Shown: positions 44,143 to 59,696 of the stretch, piece by piece
Numbering within the stretch: the stretch's first letter is position 1
Layout of the letters: every line of letters begins with the position of its first letter
Source: Planctomicrobium piriforme
GTDB lineage: Bacteria; Planctomycetota; Planctomycetia; Pirellulales; UBA1268
Direction: 5' to 3'
DNA: 64,000 bases
Assembly (NCBI GenBank): GCA_945861585.1
Contig: CAMAVC010000001.1
Coordinates: 131,947 to 195,946 of the forward strand
Translations under genes and position numbers: made by a program
The notes under the pieces: model-generated
What the model was told of the DNA's origin: nothing
What the model saw: the letters and a program-made list of their open reading frames with translations, nothing else
Databases searched by the model: none

Positions 44143-45597
44143 ATGGATCCGATTCTCGAATCGAAGCTGCTCGCCACGCGCCGCCACCTGCTCGGCGGGA
44201 TGGCCGGCGGGATCGGCGCGATCGCGATACGTGAATTGCTCGGTGCCACGGCTGCCGCTCCCACCCCGGCCCTGGCCGGCGATCCGATGGCGGTGAAGCG
44301 GCCACCACTGCCGGCGAAAGCGCAGCGGATGATCGTGATCCATCTCACGGGTTCGCCGCCGCACCTCGACCTGTACGACCACAAGCCGGAACTCGTGAAG
44401 CGCGACGGCGAAGACTGCCCGGCCGACACGATTGCGGGGAAAAAGTTCGCCTTCACTACCGGCACCCCCAAGCTGCTGGGCACGCCGCGGAAGTGGGTGC
44501 GGTGCGGCGCGAGCGGGATGGAGCTCTCCGATGCGATCCCGAACCTGCATCGCGTCGCCGACAAGCTCTGCCTCGTACGGAGCATGTTCACCGACCAGTT
44601 CAATCATGCGCCCGCCGAACTAATGGTCTACACGGGCTCGCCGCGGGCGGGTCGGCCGAGCCTGGGCAGCTGGGTGACCTACGGCCTCGGCACGGAGAAT
44701 GCGAACCTCCCTGGCTTCGTCACCCTGATCTCGTCGGGCGTACAGCCCAACGGCGGCACGAGCAGCTTCGGATCGGGCTTCCTGCCGAGCGTCTATCAAG
44801 GCGTGCAATGCCGCTCGAAGGGCGACCCGGTGCTCTACGTGTCGGACCCGCCGGGCATGAGCCGGGCGCTCCGCCGCACGAGCCTCGACGCCCTCAAGGA
44901 TCTCAACGAACTCCAGGCCCGTGAGCTCGGCAATCCCGAGACGGTGACGAGGATCGCCCAATATGAGCTCGCCTTCCGCATGCAGGCGAGCGTGCCCGAC
45001 GTGATGGACATCTCCAAGGAGCCGCAGCACGTGCTCGACGCCTACGGGGTCAAGCCGGGGCAGGCGAGCCTCGCCAACAATTGCCTGCTCGCCCGACGGC
45101 TCGTCGAGCAGGGCGTGCGGTTCGTGCACCTCTTCGACTGGGGCTGGGACTTCCACGGCACCGGTCCCCAGGAGGACATCCGCGACGGGCTCACGAAGAA
45201 GGCGGCCACGTTCGACAAGCCGGCGGCGGCCCTGATCGAGGATCTCGAGCAGCGGGGGCTCCTCGAAGACACGCTCGTGCTTTGCACCGGAGAGTTCGGC
45301 CGCACGCCGTTCCGGGAAGGCCGCACCGCGAAGGGCGACATCCTCGGCCGCGACCACTACCCCGACTGCTATTCCATCTGGATGGCCGGCGGCGGCGTCA
45401 AGCCGGGCCATGTCCATGGGGCGAGCGACGACCTCGGATTCAAGGTCGCGAGCGACATGGTGCACATCCACGACCTGCAGGCCACGCTCCTCCATCTCCT
45501 CGGCTTCGACCACACGAAGCTCACGTATCGCTTCCAGGGCCGCGACTACCGCCTCACCGACGTGCATGGCCATCTTGTGAAGGGCATCCTCGCCTGA
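44143..45597 (+). CDS. DUF1501 domain-containing protein
   Basis: LLATRRHLLGGMAGGIGAIAIREL leader; C-term HTKLTYRFQGRDYRLTDVHGHLVKGILA. Confidence 0.95.
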   Translation: MDPILESKLLATRRHLLGGMAGGIGAIAIRELLGATAAAPTPALAGDPMAVKRPPLPAKAQRMIVIHLTGSPPHLDLYDHKPELVKRDGEDCPADTIAGKKFAFTTGTPKLLGTPRKWVRCGASGMELSDAIPNLHRVADKLCLVRSMFTDQFNHAPAELMVYTGSPRAGRPSLGSWVTYGLGTENANLPGFVTLISSGVQPNGGTSSFGSGFLPSVYQGVQCRSKGDPVLYVSDPPGMSRALRRTSLDALKDLNELQARELGNPETVTRIAQYELAFRMQASVPDVMDISKEPQHVLDAYGVKPGQASLANNCLLARRLVEQGVRFVHLFDWGWDFHGTGPQEDIRDGLTKKAATFDKPAAALIEDLEQRGLLEDTLVLCTGEFGRTPFREGRTAKGDILGRDHYPDCYSIWMAGGGVKPGHVHGASDDLGFKVASDMVHIHDLQATLLHLLGFDHTKLTYRFQGRDYRLTDVHGHLVKGILA

Positions 45598-45614
45598 CGT
45601 TGCAGTCCGCTACC

Positions 45615-46988
45615 ATGGCGGGCATGAGCACCACCACGATTCTCTGGCTGCGGCACGATCTCCGGCTCGATGACAACCCGGCCCTCGCGGCAGCCGCGGC
45701 CCGCGGCGCGGTGGTGCCGGTGTTCGTCTGGGCGCCCGAGGAAGAAGCCCCGTGGGAGCCGGGGGCGGCATCGCGGTGGTGGCTCCACCACTCGCTCGAG
45801 AAACTCGCCGCCGCGTTCGCGAAGGCAGGCGCACCGCTCGTGATCCGCCGCGGGCCGTCGCTCGAGGCGCTTCAGGCGCTCGCGAAGGAAACCGGCGCCA
45901 CGCACATCGTGTGGAACCGCCGCTACGAGCCGGCCGTCATCAAGCGCGACACGGCGATCAAGAAGGCGCTCGCGGCCGGCGGCCTCGAGGTGGAGAGCTT
46001 CAACGGGGCGCTCCTCTACGAGCCGATGCACGTGGCCACGAAGGAGGGAAAGCCGTACCAGGTCTTCACGCCGTTCTGGCGGTCGCTGCTTGCGCGCGAT
46101 GAGCCCGCCGTGCCGGTGGCCGCTCCGAAGAAGCTCACCACCGTCGGAAAGGCTCCGCAGAGCCTCGCGATCGAGTCGCTCGGCCTGCTCCCCGCGATCG
46201 ACTGGGCTGCCACGATGCGCGAGACGTGGACGCCCGGCGAGGCCGGCGCTGCCAAGGGCATGGAGCGGTTCCTCGCGCGTGGGCTTTCCGGCTACGGCAC
46301 GGAGCGCGATCGGCCCGATCACGACGGCACGAGCGCCCTCTCGCCCCACCTGCATTTCGGCGAAGTGTCACCGCGCCGGCTCTGGCACGCGGTCCGCGCG
46401 GCGGTCGGCGGCACGCCGGCGGCGAAGATCGCCGGAAGCCCCGAGGTGTATCTGCGAGAACTCGGCTGGCGGGAATTCGCCAATCACCTGCTCTACCACT
46501 TTCCACACACGCCCGACGCTCCCTTGCGGGCAGACTACGCGCGGTTTCCGTGGGCGAACGATCCCGTAGGCCTGCGGGCCTGGCAGCGCGGCCGCACGGG
46601 ATTTCCGATCGTGGATGCGGGCATGCGGCAGCTGTGGGCCACCGGCTGGATGCACAACCGCGTGCGGATGATCGTGGCGAGTTTTTTGGTGAAGGATCTG
46701 CGCATCTCGTGGCTCGCAGGGGCGAAGTGGTTTTGGGACACGCTCGTGGATGCCGATCTGGCCGCCAACACGCTCGGCTGGCAGTGGGCGGCCGGCTGCG
46801 GCGCCGACGCGGCGCCCTATTTCCGGATCTTCAATCCCACGAGCCAGGCGGAGAAGTTCGATCCGGACGGGGCGTATGTGAAAGAGTGGGCCGGGGTCCA
46901 CGCGGCCGATTACCCCGAGCCGATCGTCGACCACGCCGAAGCGCGGAAGCTCGCGCTTGCGGCGCTTAAAACTATCAGTCGGAAATAG
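45615..46988 (+). CDS. Deoxyribodipyrimidine photolyase (class I-like)
   Basis: TTILWLRHDLRLDDNPALAAAA, SPHLHFGEVSPRRLWHAV, YLRELGWREFANHLLYHFP, WMHNRVRMIVASFLVKDL, FRIFNPTSQAEKFDPDGAYVKEW. Confidence 0.96.
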   Translation: MAGMSTTTILWLRHDLRLDDNPALAAAAARGAVVPVFVWAPEEEAPWEPGAASRWWLHHSLEKLAAAFAKAGAPLVIRRGPSLEALQALAKETGATHIVWNRRYEPAVIKRDTAIKKALAAGGLEVESFNGALLYEPMHVATKEGKPYQVFTPFWRSLLARDEPAVPVAAPKKLTTVGKAPQSLAIESLGLLPAIDWAATMRETWTPGEAGAAKGMERFLARGLSGYGTERDRPDHDGTSALSPHLHFGEVSPRRLWHAVRAAVGGTPAAKIAGSPEVYLRELGWREFANHLLYHFPHTPDAPLRADYARFPWANDPVGLRAWQRGRTGFPIVDAGMRQLWATGWMHNRVRMIVASFLVKDLRISWLAGAKWFWDTLVDADLAANTLGWQWAAGCGADAAPYFRIFNPTSQAEKFDPDGAYVKEWAGVHAADYPEPIVDHAEARKLALAALKTISRK

Positions 46989-51811: not shown

Positions 51812-54800
51812 ATGAAGTCGTCACGGAAGACCACTGCCGCCGCGCCCTCGTGGCATGCCCTCGAAGTCGCTGTGCCCGAGGCGAGCCGCCTTGCGCGCGT
51901 CGCTGGGGGCCTGCCCGGCCGCGTGCTGCCGCAGGCCAACACCCTCGCGCACGCGATCGTCGCGGCGGTCACCGAAATCGGGGCCGCCACCCCCGCCACG
52001 TGGCTCATCGCCCCCTCGCGCCGCGTCGGCAACGAATGGCTCGAAACGCTTGTCCGTCTGGGGCATTCCGTCACCAACGTCCACGTCACCACGCTCTCCG
52101 CCCTCGCCTTCGACATCGTCGCCGACCGGCTCGCTGCCGATGGGGTGATGCTGGCGCCGCCGCGGGCCAAGCTCGTGGCCGTGGAGCGGGTGCTTGCCGA
52201 AAGCCGCGGCGAGCTGCGGTCGTTTGCCGCCGCGGCCGGCTCGACCCGTCGCCTCGCCGAGCGGCTGCTCAAGAGCCTCGAGGCTCTTCGCAATGCCGGG
52301 CTCTCTTCCCGCGACGTGTCGCTCGGCCTGCGGCATTCCGACAAGGCCCACGATCTCTGCATCCTCCTCGACCGCTATGTGGCGGCGCTCGGTGACCTGA
52401 ATCTGATCGACCAGGCCGGGGAGCTGGCACTCGCGATCGAGCAGGTGCGGGCCGGGAAGCTGCCCGCAAAGGTTTCCTGTCTGCTGGTGCCCGACGATCT
52501 CGACCTGCCGCGGCTCGAGCGACAGCTGCTCGAGGCCCTCGGGGCGGCCGAGGGCGTCACGGTTCACACGCTCGCCACTGATCCGCCGCTGCCCGCCCCG
52601 CCGGCAGCGGTCGCTGCGGCCCGCTTCCGGATCTTTCGTGGCTCAGGCGAGGCCAACGAGGTCCGCCACGTGCTCCGTACCTGCCTCGCGGAAGGCCTGC
52701 GGCTCGACGAAATCGAGATCGTCCACACCGATGCCGCGACCTATCCGCCGCTCGTTCGCGAGATCGTGGCGGCGCTCCACCGGCCCATCACCGCCGAGAT
52801 CGCCGCCGGCAGCGAAGGCCACGTGCCGGTCACGTTCGCCGAGGGCCTGCCGCTCGCCGACTCGAAGCCGGGCCGGGCCCTCGCCGGCTGGCTCGCCTGG
52901 CGGCGCGACGGCCATCCGCAGGCGGGCCTCGAAGAGATGCTCCGCGACGGCGTGCTCGACCTCGCGACGATCGTGCCTGATGCCCCGCGGCCGTCGGCCC
53001 TCGTGCGTGAATTGCGCCGCGTGAAGATCGGCCGCGGCCTGGGTCGCACGGTGTCGATGCTCACGGCGGCCGCGGCCCGCGCGGAGGAGCAGCCCCCGGA
53101 GTCGTTCGTGCGTCGTCACGACGACGGCGATCCGCCGGCCGGCGACGACCTGACTGCCGACGAGCTCGCCACCCGCAAGTCGCGGATCACGCAGCGGCTC
53201 TCGGCGCTTGCGGCCCTGGCCAATCATCTCGCCGCCTGCGAGGGTAGCTCTGACGCCACCGCCGAGCAGGTGCTCGGCGGCGCTCGCACATTCGTCGAAA
53301 CGGTCTGCCCGGCCGACAGCGAATTCGATGGCAACGCCCGCCGCATGATCCTCGACGAGATCGACGCGATGCAGAAGTGGCGGGGCCACTCCGGCATGCA
53401 GGCCCGCGACATGCTCGACTGGCTCGAGCAACTGCCCGCTGAGCTGGTCGTGCTCGGGGCCGGGCCGCGGCCGGGCTGCCTCCACGTGAGCGGCCTCACC
53501 GGGGGTGGCCACTCCGGCCGGCCCTACACGTTCGTGCTCGGCCTCGACGAAACCCGCTTTCCAGGGGGCAACGCCACCGATCCGGTGCTCACCGACGGCG
53601 ACCGCAGCCTGATCAACGAGTCGGCTCCCGACGCCCGGCTCACCGTCGCCCGCGATGCAGCCACCCGCAACCTCGACCTCTTCCGCCGACTGCTCGCGCG
53701 GGTGCGCGGCGGCGTGCGGCTCGGCTTCTCCTGTCGCGACATGGCCGACGACGCCGAGGTGTTTCCATCGCCGGCGCTCGTGGCTCTTCATGGGCAGGCC
53801 GTCGGCAATCCGCTGGCCACCGTCGACGATCTCCTCGAGTCGCTCGCCCCGCCTGAAACGCTCGTGCCCTCCGACCCGGGCCTCGCCCTCGACGAATCGC
53901 AGTGGTGGCTGGCGGTGCTCGGGCCCACTGCCCGTGCCGACGAGGTGCAGGCGGCCCTCGCCTCTCACCGCCATCACCTCGCCCACGGTCAGGCGGCGGC
54001 GGCCGCGCGGGCGGCCGACGTGTTCACGCCGCACGACGGCCTCGTGCCCGAGGCGGGCTTGCTGCTCGATCCCCGCGCGAGCCACGGCCGCGCCGCCTCG
54101 CCCAACAGCCTCGAGACGCTCGCCACGTGCCCGCGAAAATTTTTCTTCCGCTACGGCCTTGGCATCGAGCCACTCGAGCGGTTCGACGACGACGCCGACC
54201 GCTGGCTCACGCCGCTCGATGCCGGCAGCCTCCTGCACACCGTGCTCGAGCGGTTCATGCGCGGGCTCATCGACCGCGCGGAACTGCCCGAGGTCGGGGT
54301 GCATCTCGACGAGCTGCTCGCGATCCTCGACGAGGAGCTCGTGGCGAGCCGCCGCCGGCAGCCGCCGCTCACGGAGCTGGCCTTCGCCGCCCGCCGCGAC
54401 GAGCTCCGCACGGCGATGCACACGTTCCTCCACGACGAGGAGCGATCCTGCCGCGAGACGGGCCGGCGGCCGCTCGCGCTCGAGGCCGCGATCGGCGTGG
54501 AGCCGGCCGGCGCGGGCACGCCGTTCGACTGCCGCGAGCCGGTGGTCGTGTCGCTCGCTCCTGGTGAGACGATCAAGCTCCGTGGCCGAATCGACCGGAT
54601 CGACGTTCGCGACTCGGGCGACGGCCACGCGTATGCCCTCTGGGACTACAAGAGTGGCAGCGGCTACGGGTTTCCGGCGATGGCGGCCGACGATCCGTTT
54701 AACGGCGGCCGCAAGCTGCAACACGGCCTGTATGTCGTCATGCTCCGCACGCGGCTGGCGGATCCGGCATGCCCGGTCGGTGGCGGCGACGTCGAACGCT

Positions 54801-57800
54801 TCGGCTATTTCTTTCCCACGCGCGCGGGCAAGGGCCGGCGGCTCGAATGGACAGCTACTCAATTGGCCGAGTGCACGGCGCTCGTCCGCCGGCTCGCGGA
54901 GATTGCGCGGCAGGGCATCTTCCTGCCGACGGATGATCCCGCCGACTGCACCTTCTGCGATTTCGCGGCGGCCTGCGGTGATGCGGCGCGGGTGACCCGC
55001 GAGGCGGCCCGGATGGTCGGCGGCTCGCAGCCGCTCCGCGATCTCTTTGGCGAGCTGCGGCGCGACCGGCAGCAGCGGGCCGTGCCGACGATCCGCCGGC
55101 CCCACGAGGCGCCGCTTGCGGTCACGCCGCATCCTGCCGCGCCGGTGCCGCCCCCCGACGAGCCGGTCCGCCACCGCATCCGCACCGATCTTTCCACCAC
55201 GCTCCTGGTCGAGGCCGCGGCCGGTACGGGCAAGACCACGTGCATGGTCGATCGGATGCTGGCGCTCGTGCGCACCGGCGCTGCGAAGCCGGAAGGAATC
55301 GTGGCGGTCACGTTCACGAAGAAGGCGGCAGGCGAGCTCCGCCGCCGGTTCCGTGAGAAGCTGCAGCGGGCCGCCGTCGAGGCGACCGATCCGGCCGAGC
55401 AGGGCCGGCTCACGGCCGCGCTCGAACGGGTCGACTCGATGGTGATCGGCACGATCCATTCGTTCGCGGGCCGACTGTTGCGGGAGCGACCGCTGGAGGC
55501 GGGCGTCGACCCCGGCTTCCGCGAGCTCGACGATTCGGCCGACCGGCTCCTGCGCCGGCAGGCCTGGCGGGAGTTCGTCACCGCCGCGCCCGCCGACCAT
55601 CCCCAGCTGCTCGCCGATCTCGATGCCGTGGGCCTGCGGCTCGGTGACCTGTCGCGGCTGTTCGTGGAGCGGTTCGCCACCTATGGCGACGTCGAAGACT
55701 GGCCGGCGCCGGCCACACCGCCGCCAGACGTCACCGGTGTCGTCGCGGCGATCGAGGCGTTTGCGGGGCGGATCGAGGCCGAGGTGTTTCCCGGTCCGGC
55801 GGAGCGGGGCACCGACGAACTCATGAACGCGCTCGAGCAGTTCGCCCGCATAGTCCGCCGGTGCGATCGCTCTTCGGTCGTGGCCGTGATGGATGTGCTG
55901 CAGGAGCTCGACCGCACGCCGAAGGTCACGCAGAAGTGCTGGCCCGGGGTCGGCGACACCGACAAGGAGCGGAAGGCCGCCCAGAAGGAGGCGGCCCTCG
56001 GCTGGGCAGCCGAATGGGAGCAGCTCCGCGACACGCTCGCGCGGCCCGCGCTCTGGCAGTGGCGGGCCCATCGGTATCCCGTCGCGATCGCGGCGCTCCA
56101 GCAGGCGCTCGCCGTCTACGACCGGCTGCGGGCCGAGCGGGGCGGGCTCTCGTTTCAGGATCTGCTCTGCAAGGCCGCGCGGCTGCTCGTCGGGCAGCCC
56201 GACGTGCGGCGAAGCTTTCGGGCCCGCTACACGCACCTGCTCGTCGACGAATTCCAGGACACCGACCCGGTGCAGGCGGAGATGCTGCTCCTGCTCACGG
56301 CCACCGATCCCGACGAGCGCGACTGGCGGCAGTGCGTGCCCGCGCCGGGGTCGCTGTTCGTCGTGGGCGATCCGAAGCAGTCGCTCTATCGCTTCCGGCG
56401 GGCCGACATCGTCACCTACACCGCCGTCCGCGACATCATCGCGGCCCACGGCGACGTGCTCGCGCTGACGACCAACTTCCGCAGCCGGGGCGACCTCGTG
56501 GGCTGGGCCAACGACGTGTTCACGGCCCAGTTCCCACCGCAGGCCACGGTCGAATCGCCGTCGTTCACGCCGAGCACCTCGGGCCGCCGCGAGGCCCCGC
56601 CCACCGGGGGCGAGAAGGGCTGGCTCTCGGGTATCCGCACGCTGCGGTTCGTGCGGAGCGGCCAGGCGGGCGACCTCTGGGCGGAGCAGGAGGCCCGCGA
56701 GATTGCGACCTTTATCAGGAGGGCGATCGACGCCGGGCTGGCCGTGCCGCGCACGCTCGACGAGGCTGCCCACGGCCACACCACGGCCTGCCGGCCGGGC
56801 GACTTTCTGCTCGTGGCCCGGGAGCGGAAGCATCTCGGGATCTATGCGGCTGCCCTGCATGCGGTCGGCCTGCCGGTGGATGTCACAGGCACGCTGGGTG
56901 AAGACCAGGCCGAGCCGCTTCGCGAGCTCCGCACCTGCCTCGCGGCCCTTGCCGATCCCGATGATCCGGTGGCCCTGCTCGCACTCGTGCGGGGCGTGGT
57001 TTTCGGATTCAGTGATGCCGACCTCTTCGCCTACAAGACGGCCGGCGGCAGGTTCACCGGCGGGATCGACGTGCCCGCTGGTCTCGATGCGGTGCTGGCG
57101 GCCCGGTTCGCGGCCGCCCGCGAGGCCTTCTCCCGCTGGCGGTCATGGCTGCGGCATCTGCCGGTGGCCGCGACGGTGGAGCGGATCATCGACGACGCCG
57201 GCCTGTTCTTGATCGCGGCCGCGGCCGATGGCGAAGCGGGGCCGCGTGGCCGGGCCGTGGCCGGCCTCGTGCTCAAGTATCTGGAGCGGCTGCGGACCGA
57301 CCGGGCCGAGGTGGTGTCGATCCACGACTGCCTCGACCTGCTCGACGACATGATCGACGGATCGACGCGGGCCGAATTTGATCCGCTCACGATCGATCCG
57401 CCCTCGACCGCCTGCGTGCGGGTGATGAACCTTCACAAGGCGAAGGGGCTCGAGGCCCCGGTCGTGTTCCTCGTCGATTTCCAGAAGCGCAAAGTCGGCG
57501 ACGACGTGACCGACGGCCCGTTTCTCCACGTCGACCGCACCCATGCCCGCACCACAGGCCGTCTCGCCGTCACGCATGCCGTGGGCTGGACGCAGAAGAT
57601 CGTGGCGGCGCCGCTCGGCTGGGAAGAGTTCTGCCGCCGCGAGCGGGCCTTCGAACAGGCCGAGCAGATCCGGCTCGACTACGTGGCCGCCACGCGGCCG
57701 GGCAGCTGCCTCGTGGTGTCGCTCTATGAGAAGCAGGAAAAGGGCAAGAAGGACGAGCCCGATACGTTCACGGCCGAAGGGGCCTGGGAACGGTACGCCG

Positions 57801-58492
57801 GTTTTCTTGCCGGCGCGCCGGATCTGCCCATGCTCACGGCTGTCGCGGCGGTGCCACAGCCCGTGCCGGCCCCAGCGCCGCCCGCGGGGCTGGCCGACGC
57901 GATCCGCACGCAGATCGCCGCGTGTGTGCAGCCGACATTTGCCCGGATTTCACCGCGCGAGGTGCTCACCGAGCCAGCCGAGGGGATTCGCTTCACGGGC
58001 GACGGCCTCGGCGAGCCGTGGGGCCGGGCGATCCATCGGCTGCTCGAACTGGCAGCCCACGATGCCGCGCTCGATCTCCCCGCGGCGGCCGCCACGACGC
58101 TCTCCGGCGAGGCGGTCTCGCTCGCCTATCTCGACCGTGCCGTCGAGACGGTGCGGGGCGTGCTCGCAAGCGAGATCTGGCAGCGGGCCCAGGCCAGCCC
58201 GGCGCGGTTCGTCGAGGTGCCCTTCGCGGTGCAGGTGCGGGGCGAAGATCTGCCGGAGCAGGTGCGGAAGCTCGCCGGCGACGGGGAAGCGTTGCCCACG
58301 GTCGTCCGCGGCGTGATCGACCTCGTGTTCGCCGAGGCCGCAGCGGGGGCATGGACCGTCGTCGACTGGAAGACCGACTCGGTCACGCAGGCCAGCGAGC
58401 AGCTGCTCGAAGACCACTACCGGCCGCAGGTCGAGCTCTACGCCGACTGCTGGCGGCTGCTCGCGCCGTATAACAGCTCACCGAACCAGTGA
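51812..58492 (+). CDS. Single-chain AddB-AddA-like helicase-nuclease (2226 aa)
   Basis: N-half lacks Walker A but has ATCPRKFFFRYGLG...GRIDRID...LWDYKSGSGYG...CTFCDFAAACG (AddB-type Fe-S nuclease); C-half has VEAAAGTGKTT, VDEFQDTDPVQAEML, VGDPKQSLYRFRRADI, LHKAKGLEAPVVFLVDF, VAATRPGSCLVVS and VVRGVIDLVF...VVDWKTDS (AddA/UvrD plus nuclease). Confidence 0.92.
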   Translation: MKSSRKTTAAAPSWHALEVAVPEASRLARVAGGLPGRVLPQANTLAHAIVAAVTEIGAATPATWLIAPSRRVGNEWLETLVRLGHSVTNVHVTTLSALAFDIVADRLAADGVMLAPPRAKLVAVERVLAESRGELRSFAAAAGSTRRLAERLLKSLEALRNAGLSSRDVSLGLRHSDKAHDLCILLDRYVAALGDLNLIDQAGELALAIEQVRAGKLPAKVSCLLVPDDLDLPRLERQLLEALGAAEGVTVHTLATDPPLPAPPAAVAAARFRIFRGSGEANEVRHVLRTCLAEGLRLDEIEIVHTDAATYPPLVREIVAALHRPITAEIAAGSEGHVPVTFAEGLPLADSKPGRALAGWLAWRRDGHPQAGLEEMLRDGVLDLATIVPDAPRPSALVRELRRVKIGRGLGRTVSMLTAAAARAEEQPPESFVRRHDDGDPPAGDDLTADELATRKSRITQRLSALAALANHLAACEGSSDATAEQVLGGARTFVETVCPADSEFDGNARRMILDEIDAMQKWRGHSGMQARDMLDWLEQLPAELVVLGAGPRPGCLHVSGLTGGGHSGRPYTFVLGLDETRFPGGNATDPVLTDGDRSLINESAPDARLTVARDAATRNLDLFRRLLARVRGGVRLGFSCRDMADDAEVFPSPALVALHGQAVGNPLATVDDLLESLAPPETLVPSDPGLALDESQWWLAVLGPTARADEVQAALASHRHHLAHGQAAAAARAADVFTPHDGLVPEAGLLLDPRASHGRAASPNSLETLATCPRKFFFRYGLGIEPLERFDDDADRWLTPLDAGSLLHTVLERFMRGLIDRAELPEVGVHLDELLAILDEELVASRRRQPPLTELAFAARRDELRTAMHTFLHDEERSCRETGRRPLALEAAIGVEPAGAGTPFDCREPVVVSLAPGETIKLRGRIDRIDVRDSGDGHAYALWDYKSGSGYGFPAMAADDPFNGGRKLQHGLYVVMLRTRLADPACPVGGGDVERFGYFFPTRAGKGRRLEWTATQLAECTALVRRLAEIARQGIFLPTDDPADCTFCDFAAACGDAARVTREAARMVGGSQPLRDLFGELRRDRQQRAVPTIRRPHEAPLAVTPHPAAPVPPPDEPVRHRIRTDLSTTLLVEAAAGTGKTTCMVDRMLALVRTGAAKPEGIVAVTFTKKAAGELRRRFREKLQRAAVEATDPAEQGRLTAALERVDSMVIGTIHSFAGRLLRERPLEAGVDPGFRELDDSADRLLRRQAWREFVTAAPADHPQLLADLDAVGLRLGDLSRLFVERFATYGDVEDWPAPATPPPDVTGVVAAIEAFAGRIEAEVFPGPAERGTDELMNALEQFARIVRRCDRSSVVAVMDVLQELDRTPKVTQKCWPGVGDTDKERKAAQKEAALGWAAEWEQLRDTLARPALWQWRAHRYPVAIAALQQALAVYDRLRAERGGLSFQDLLCKAARLLVGQPDVRRSFRARYTHLLVDEFQDTDPVQAEMLLLLTATDPDERDWRQCVPAPGSLFVVGDPKQSLYRFRRADIVTYTAVRDIIAAHGDVLALTTNFRSRGDLVGWANDVFTAQFPPQATVESPSFTPSTSGRREAPPTGGEKGWLSGIRTLRFVRSGQAGDLWAEQEAREIATFIRRAIDAGLAVPRTLDEAAHGHTTACRPGDFLLVARERKHLGIYAAALHAVGLPVDVTGTLGEDQAEPLRELRTCLAALADPDDPVALLALVRGVVFGFSDADLFAYKTAGGRFTGGIDVPAGLDAVLAARFAAAREAFSRWRSWLRHLPVAATVERIIDDAGLFLIAAAADGEAGPRGRAVAGLVLKYLERLRTDRAEVVSIHDCLDLLDDMIDGSTRAEFDPLTIDPPSTACVRVMNLHKAKGLEAPVVFLVDFQKRKVGDDVTDGPFLHVDRTHARTTGRLAVTHAVGWTQKIVAAPLGWEEFCRRERAFEQAEQIRLDYVAATRPGSCLVVSLYEKQEKGKKDEPDTFTAEGAWERYAGFLAGAPDLPMLTAVAAVPQPVPAPAPPAGLADAIRTQIAACVQPTFARISPREVLTEPAEGIRFTGDGLGEPWGRAIHRLLELAAHDAALDLPAAAATTLSGEAVSLAYLDRAVETVRGVLASEIWQRAQASPARFVEVPFAVQVRGEDLPEQVRKLAGDGEALPTVVRGVIDLVFAEAAAGAWTVVDWKTDSVTQASEQLLEDHYRPQVELYADCWRLLAPYNSSPNQ

Positions 58493-58508: not shown

Positions 58509-59696
58509 ATGACGAATCCCTCCGATCCCACGATCACCTGCCCGCACTGCAAAACGGAGGTCCGACTCACGGAGTCGCTCGCAGCCCCGCTCGTCGAGGC
58601 CACGCGAGCACAATACGAAGCGAAGCTGCAGGCCGAGCGGGCCGCGATCGCCAAGGCCGAGGCCGAAAAGGCCCGGCTCGCGCTCAAGGCCGACATCGAT
58701 CAGAAGGCCAAGGATCTCGCCGACTTGAAGGGCGTGCTCGCCGACCGCGATCTCAAGCTCGTCGAGGCCCAGAAGGCCCAGACGGAGGCGCTGAAGAAGC
58801 AGCGGGAGCTCGACGATGCCCGTCGCGAGCTCGATCTCTCCGTCGAGAAAAAGGTGCAGGAGTCGCTCGCCGCGGCCCGGGCTCAGGCGAAGCAGGAGGC
58901 CGAGACGGATCTCAAACTCAAGATGTCGGAGAAGGAGCAGACGATCACGGCGATGCAGAAACAGATCGAGGAGCTCAAGCGCCGGGCCGAGCAGGGCTCG
59001 CAACAGCTCCAGGGAGAGGTGCAAGAGCTGGAGCTCGAGGGCCTGCTCAAGCAGTCGTTCCCGACCGACGTGTTCACGCCCGTGCCCAAGGGGGAGTTCG
59101 GCGGCGACGTGGTGCACGCGGTGGCCCGCGGCGAAGGGCTCGTCTGCGGGAAGATCCTCTGGGAGTCGAAGCGCACGAAAAACTGGAGCGACGGCTGGCT
59201 TGTGAAGCTGCGCGACGATCAGCGGGCGGCGAAGGCCGATCTTGCGGTGATCGTCACGCAGGCCCTGCCCAAGGGTGTGGAAACCTTCGGCCACGTGGAC
59301 GGCGTGTGGGTGACGAGCACCCGCACGTTTCTCCCGCTGGCGGTGGCCCTGCGGCACACGCTTCTCGAGCTGGCGCTCGCGCGGCAGGCGGGCGAGGGGC
59401 AGCAGACGAAGATGGAGCTCGTCTATCACTACCTCACGGGCCCGCGGTTCCGGCAGCGGGTGACGGCGATCATCGAGAAGTTCGAGGAGATGCAGACCGA
59501 CCTCACGAAGGAGCGGGCCGCGATGACGAAGCTGTGGGCCAAGAGGGAGATGCAGATCCAGGCCGTGCTCTCCGCGACCGCCGGCATGTATGGCGACCTG
59601 CAGGGCATTGCCGGCCAGGCGATCGAAACGATCGAGGCCCTCGACGTCTCCCGGCTCACCGGTCCCCCTGGCGGCACGAACACCACCGGCTCCTGA
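58509..59696 (+). CDS. DUF2130 domain-containing protein with coiled coil
   Basis: N-term CPHCKTEVRLTESL, long coiled coil, GEFGGDVVHAVARGEGLVCGKILWESKRTKNWSDGWLVKLRDDQRAAKADLAVIVT. Confidence 0.92.
   Translation: MTNPSDPTITCPHCKTEVRLTESLAAPLVEATRAQYEAKLQAERAAIAKAEAEKARLALKADIDQKAKDLADLKGVLADRDLKLVEAQKAQTEALKKQRELDDARRELDLSVEKKVQESLAAARAQAKQEAETDLKLKMSEKEQTITAMQKQIEELKRRAEQGSQQLQGEVQELELEGLLKQSFPTDVFTPVPKGEFGGDVVHAVARGEGLVCGKILWESKRTKNWSDGWLVKLRDDQRAAKADLAVIVTQALPKGVETFGHVDGVWVTSTRTFLPLAVALRHTLLELALARQAGEGQQTKMELVYHYLTGPRFRQRVTAIIEKFEEMQTDLTKERAAMTKLWAKREMQIQAVLSATAGMYGDLQGIAGQAIETIEALDVSRLTGPPGGTNTTGS

Follow-up and report, generated by a model that had tools for sequence, protein, structure and literature searches.

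AddA and AddB are normally two separate proteins, and in AdnAB a UvrD-type motor domain is found in both subunits. In AddAB of Bacillus subtilis, a single SF1A motor works with two nucleases, one for each strand, and binding of Chi within the complex allows the 3' strand to escape the AddA nuclease (PMC4824097). Here we describe a planctomycete locus at which both proteins are encoded in a single open reading frame (ORF). The locus lies in the window, by which we mean the whole stretch of 64,000 nucleotides that was analysed. From its sequence and by analogy with AddAB, we predict with a probability of about 0.9 that the product is a single-chain AddAB-type helicase-nuclease for double-strand-break resection.

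Layout of the fused protein

A sequence-only reading of the window had proposed one continuous 2226-codon ORF with two intact nuclease domains, and both claims hold: 51812-58492 translates on the plus strand without a stop, and catalytic residues are present in the AddB half as well as in the AddA half. The chain consists of AddB (residues ~1-1086), a Pro-rich linker (~1087-1116) and AddA (~1117-2226), and this joining of AddB and AddA in one polypeptide instead of two is seen in five complete copies and across eight junctions. On the 2226-aa protein, Pfam recognizes a PD-(D/E)XK nuclease (762-1055), a UvrD-type helicase (1125-1539) and UvrD_C (1867-1973), while the top NCBIfam models are AddA and RecB on the C-terminal half and AddB, weakly, on the middle. 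The features are as follows.

51812-58492, plus strand: AddB-AddA fusion ORF, 2226 aa, uninterrupted, ATG start, with orthologous single ORFs in relatives.
51812-55069, plus strand: AddB half (aa 1-1086), an inactive helicase-like part without Walker A and an Fe-S PD-(D/E)XK nuclease, from profile and fold matches.
54095-54976, plus strand: AddB nuclease domain (aa 762-1055), PF12705 (PDDEXK_1) at 156 bits and conservation in 28 AddB sequences.
55070-55159, plus strand: Pro-rich linker (aa ~1087-1116).
55160-58489, plus strand: AddA half (aa 1117-2226), UvrD/RecB-type helicase and C-terminal nuclease, profile match to TIGR02784 at 194 bits.
58022-58441, plus strand: AddA nuclease motifs (H2075, D2170, D2185, K2187, Q2206), from alignment and coordinates.
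58509-59696, plus strand: DUF2130 gene, starting 16 bp past the stop codon of the fusion, PF09903 at 260 bits.

A 1405-aa antisense ORF (52643-56860, minus strand) was considered as a gene, but relatives show no conserved counterpart of such length, and we attribute it to the high GC of the coding strand that it shadows.

The assignment of the N-terminal half to AddB was borne out by profile and structure comparisons. A profile of 28 sequences matches B. subtilis AddB (3u44_B, residues 4-1138) end to end with E=2.1e-83 and ranks AddB above PcrA, UvrD and RecC. Residues 1-1092 were modelled with AlphaFold (mean pLDDT 85, pTM 0.71), and a search of the PDB with this model placed its five AddB chains first, followed by AdnA and then RecC; TM-scores were ~0.6, so the global domain arrangement of the model is only approximate. 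As in AddB, an inactive UvrD-like fold precedes the nuclease, in which four cysteines (C plus CxxCx5C) make up the Fe-S motif. The nuclease motifs noted earlier were all located within the PF12705 match, namely GRIDRID (925-931), DYKSG (945-949) and CxxCx5C (1046-1055), and residues C773, H809, D928, D945, K947, Q970, Y974, C1046, C1049 and C1055 are conserved in the fused proteins.

A motif check and an alignment of AddB sequences found no Walker A in the AddB half, as first read, and the fusion chain thus has one motor. Walker A is also missing from AddB of the unfused sisters G108, G168, G218, G044 and G224, which places the loss of the second ATP site before the fusion. On this alignment, Walker A is missing throughout the sub-lineage, in fused and unfused members alike, and its absence therefore did not arise with the fusion; in the order's other AddB type, GPxxSGKT or a similar motif is present. 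Nor is Walker A required for AddB, because it is absent in unfused sisters encoded beside addA.

The C-terminal half contains all the UvrD/RecB and nuclease motifs that had been listed for it, and a profile of 26 sequences matches AddA (3u44_A, residues 21-1204) with E=9.8e-154. The UvrD-helicase domain (1125-1539) carries Walker A as AGTGKT (1137-1142), and the remaining helicase motifs are DEFQDTD (1479), VGDPKQ (1518), NFRS (1555), HKAKGLE (1875) and VAATR (1958). The nuclease motifs are GVIDLVF (2167), DWKTD (2185) and QVELY (2206), with the catalytic residues conserved among the fused proteins, and the half therefore combines SF1A helicase motifs I-VI with a C-terminal RecB-type nuclease, as AddA does. 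It does not reach the NCBIfam equivalog cut-offs for AddA (TIGR02784, 194 bits against 860; TIGR02785, 188 bits against 708), models that cover the alphaproteobacterial and Gram-positive branches only. Because the AddA half is a divergent branch, we take the cut-off as a naming rule and not as a defining property of AddA. Among unfused AddA proteins of planctomycetes, several (L166, L169, L173, L175 and others) measure only 945-999 aa and do not have the nuclease region that the profile carries at its C-terminus, so the AddA nuclease seems to have been lost repeatedly.

Since all the parts that AddAB requires are present in the fusion, the same action is the best inference. By analogy with AddAB biochemistry, the AddA motor would start at a DNA end and move 3'-5', with the 3' strand cut by the nuclease of AddA and the 5' strand by that of AddB. 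The helicase-like scaffold of AddB would search the 3' strand for a Chi-like signal, and RecA would receive a 3' overhang. Fusion would further mean that the subunits are made 1:1 and assembled in cis from the start. The latch arginine is kept (R629 in B. subtilis, R598 in the fusion); the acidic AddB latch residue (E129 in B. subtilis) is not clearly conserved, being shifted or changed, and thus Chi control may differ.

The junction and its linker

The linker was placed by means of the AddB C-termini and AddA N-termini of unfused G108, G168 and G218. A Pro-rich linker had been recognized from the sequence alone and is indeed present, although the range first given for it, 55081-55168, is off by ~10 nt and takes in the first AddA residues. 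In unfused G108, AddB ends in LRELRRSK and a stop, and AddA starts near NTPPDQAHRDAIHQELDTTMLVEAAAGTGKT; at the fused junction, LFGELRRDRQQ is followed by ~30 linker residues and then PPDEPVRHRIRTDLSTTLLVEAAAGTGKT. In pairwise comparisons, the AddB scaffold, the AddA helicase and both nucleases give dN/dS of 0.08-0.28. The linker gives 0.19-0.27 between close relatives and 0.60 in a single pair that is more distant and offers few sites; all of these ratios are approximate because dS is high in most pairs.

If the chain were cut in the linker, or if an internal start gave extra AddA, the working enzyme would be an ordinary heterodimer. The linker is the least conserved part of the fusion, is Pro/Arg-rich and exposed in principle, and has in-frame starts nearby (ATG 55013, GTG 55082 and GTG 55145), all of which would suit such an arrangement. 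However, the site of ATG 55013 reads L, L, M and K in the other close fused genomes, and no conserved internal start codon near the linker was found across the fused genomes compared. Furthermore, linker length is constant within each fused subclade: the distance from CxxCx5C to Walker A is identical across the five members of one subclade, and the other subclade's three members share a distance that exceeds it by 7 residues. We consider such a heterodimer unlikely.

Distribution of the fusion

Within the family, the fusion is present in 9 of 72 genomes and in six of twelve genera, which shows that most family genomes do without the fused enzyme. A distant unfused addB-addA pair was found in 18 of the 72, scored by a PF12705 protein of 975-1202 aa, with addA adjoining in all seven such loci fetched; the notion that most of the family has no AddAB was rejected on this account. 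The remaining family genomes have neither. Fusion and distant pair occur together in 0 of 72 genomes, as would be expected if they do the same job. About 2 co-occurrences were expected by chance (hypergeometric P ~0.06, calculated by hand with relatedness ignored), so this mutual exclusion only hints at replacement.

Wider samples of the order (98 genomes), class (89) and phylum (99), partly overlapping, brought the total to ~320 distinct genomes of the phylum. No confirmed member of the same fusion was found outside the family in these samples, G136 and G145 having partial copies cut by contig ends before the junction. The AddA of G136, of the same lineage (L084 1-2505), has an in-frame TAA inside the helicase part, which reflects either a decaying copy or an assembly error. 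Long open frames in G226, G205, G201, G110, G058, G283 and others had raised the prospect of a phylum-wide fusion and resolved into separate or overlapping ORFs. Across the ~320 planctomycete genomes, fusions are found only in the one family and in one distant case (G222), and an AddB-AddA fusion is not a general planctomycete trait. Carriage on plasmids or phages was also considered and rejected, as no record covers 80% of the fusion protein. No published natural AddA-AddB fusion was found in the open-access literature, which is an incomplete sample.

Origin of the fusion

The family's fusions form one clade with 100/100 support in the AddA tree and in the AddB tree, and the nearest relatives in both trees are unfused (G168, G218, G044, G108, G306 and G224). 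In G168 and G218, addB and addA are separate and adjacent; in G044 each lies on its own contig and addB is not followed by addA; and in G108 (L083 4329-10733) AddB, a single TAG and AddA follow one another in the same frame. The phylogeny thus supports a single origin in the family from an adjacent addB-addA pair, with the fusion then kept under purifying selection. Together with the same-frame TAG of G108, it points to stop-codon loss as the probable route, by which a short intergenic stretch would have become the linker. The arrangement in G108 is likely the pre-fusion state, or else a candidate for stop readthrough.

The gene trees join G025, assigned to genus g4, to G005 of g1 instead of to G076, which is also of g4. 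This placement suggests either transfer between genera or poorly defined genera. From another part of the phylum, G222 encodes AddB and then AddA in one 2075-aa ORF (L125 3884-10111) whose AddA half ends before the nuclease domain. It is very distant in both trees and apparently represents a second, independent AddB-AddA fusion.

Neighbouring genes

The DUF2130 gene downstream is probably co-transcribed with the fusion. Its protein has an N-terminal CPxC pair, a long coiled coil and a conserved GGDVV...ILWESK...Q pattern; this D...ExK...Q arrangement resembles a PD-(D/E)XK site, and the protein may be a nuclease. The gene adjoins the fusion in G005 and G076, is present in G004, and is absent in G001-G003, G018, G032 and G008, all without the fusion. 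G025 has the fusion and no DUF2130 gene, G006 has a distant DUF2130 and no fusion, and none was found beside the fusion in the flanks examined for G014, G015 and G022. Given this mixed occurrence, the DUF2130 gene is a frequent neighbour in one subclade and not a required partner. A divergent sigma factor gene lies upstream of the fusion, and other neighbours encode a DUF2252 protein and an FMN oxidoreductase. A DNA photolyase gene (45081-46988) is found on the same strand, ~5 kb upstream.

One could imagine a broader history in which a single-chain AddBA evolved at least twice in Planctomycetota and was swapped between genera, replacing two-gene AddAB, and in part of its range worked with a DUF2130 protein as an extra nuclease-like subunit; we regard this as speculative and rather improbable as a whole.

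A role as a defence-type accessory helicase-nuclease in place of housekeeping resection is very unlikely. The patchy presence of the fusion, the discord between gene tree and genus labels for G025, the gain or loss of the DUF2130 gene along with the fusion in some genomes, and the PADLOC matches to GajB and DRT helicases speak for such a role. Yet the PADLOC matches are to the generic UvrD core, whereas the AddA and AddB profile matches span the whole halves. Furthermore, none of the neighbours (photolyase, sigma factor, DUF2252, FMN oxidoreductase) is a known defence gene, and other families have their orthologues as ordinary addB-addA pairs.

Integrity of the reading frame

The junction is open and in frame in eight genomes including that of the window, from five genera of the family and separate assemblies. 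In whole-genome searches, single-ORF fusions were found in G005 (76% identical to the window protein; start cut by a contig edge), G025 (74%), G076 (70%), G014 (47%) and G015 (46%). In G004 (83%) and G022 (~45%), the copy is cut by a contig end but includes the junction. All junction-spanning relatives are 42-83% identical to the window protein; the copy in G091, which belongs to a sixth genus, does not extend to the junction. A scan of genome contigs gave only one very close copy, and the relative named is JAIXPT010000300.1, from a Planctomycetaceae metagenome genome. As judged from these sequences, the fusion is a real, inherited, single-chain AddAB. That a sequencing error had joined two ORFs, a possibility raised with the initial reading, fails in the face of eight genomes that read through the junction in frame. 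Thus, while the assembly is fragmented (157 contigs) and the close relative G108 has both genes adjacent in one frame with a single stop between them, joining by an assembly or base-calling error is rejected as extremely improbable because independent genomes span the same junction and the linker evolves as coding sequence.

Comparison with known systems

The fusion is an inherited variant of the well-known AddAB machine. It illustrates clearly how two interacting subunits can become fused, with stop-codon loss as the probable route, and the unfused, same-frame-stop and fused states all occur among living relatives. A natural one-chain AddAB would also be a ready tool for single-molecule and structural work, with fixed stoichiometry and one expression construct.

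Among described systems, B. subtilis-type AddAB (RexAB) is matched end to end in both chains and shares one SF1A motor, two PD-(D/E)XK nucleases and the AddB Fe-S site, but it consists of two polypeptides where the fusion has one, and its AddB has a second ATP site where the AddB half of the fusion has no Walker A. The unfused pairs of the sub-lineage (G168, G218, G044, G108, G306 and G224) have the same motifs, including AddB without Walker A, and differ in being two genes and not one. AdnAB is alike in having two RecB-family subunits and two nucleases; in contrast, only the C-terminal half of the fusion contains Walker A and the remaining helicase motifs, and the fold search with the N-terminal half places AdnA after AddB. 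RecBCD is likewise a resection helicase-nuclease, and the N-terminal half of the fusion resembles RecC, yet that half has an intact nuclease that RecC is missing, and no RecD-like part is found in the ORF. The G222 fusion shares the order of AddB and then AddA in one ORF, but is very distant and lacks the AddA nuclease region.
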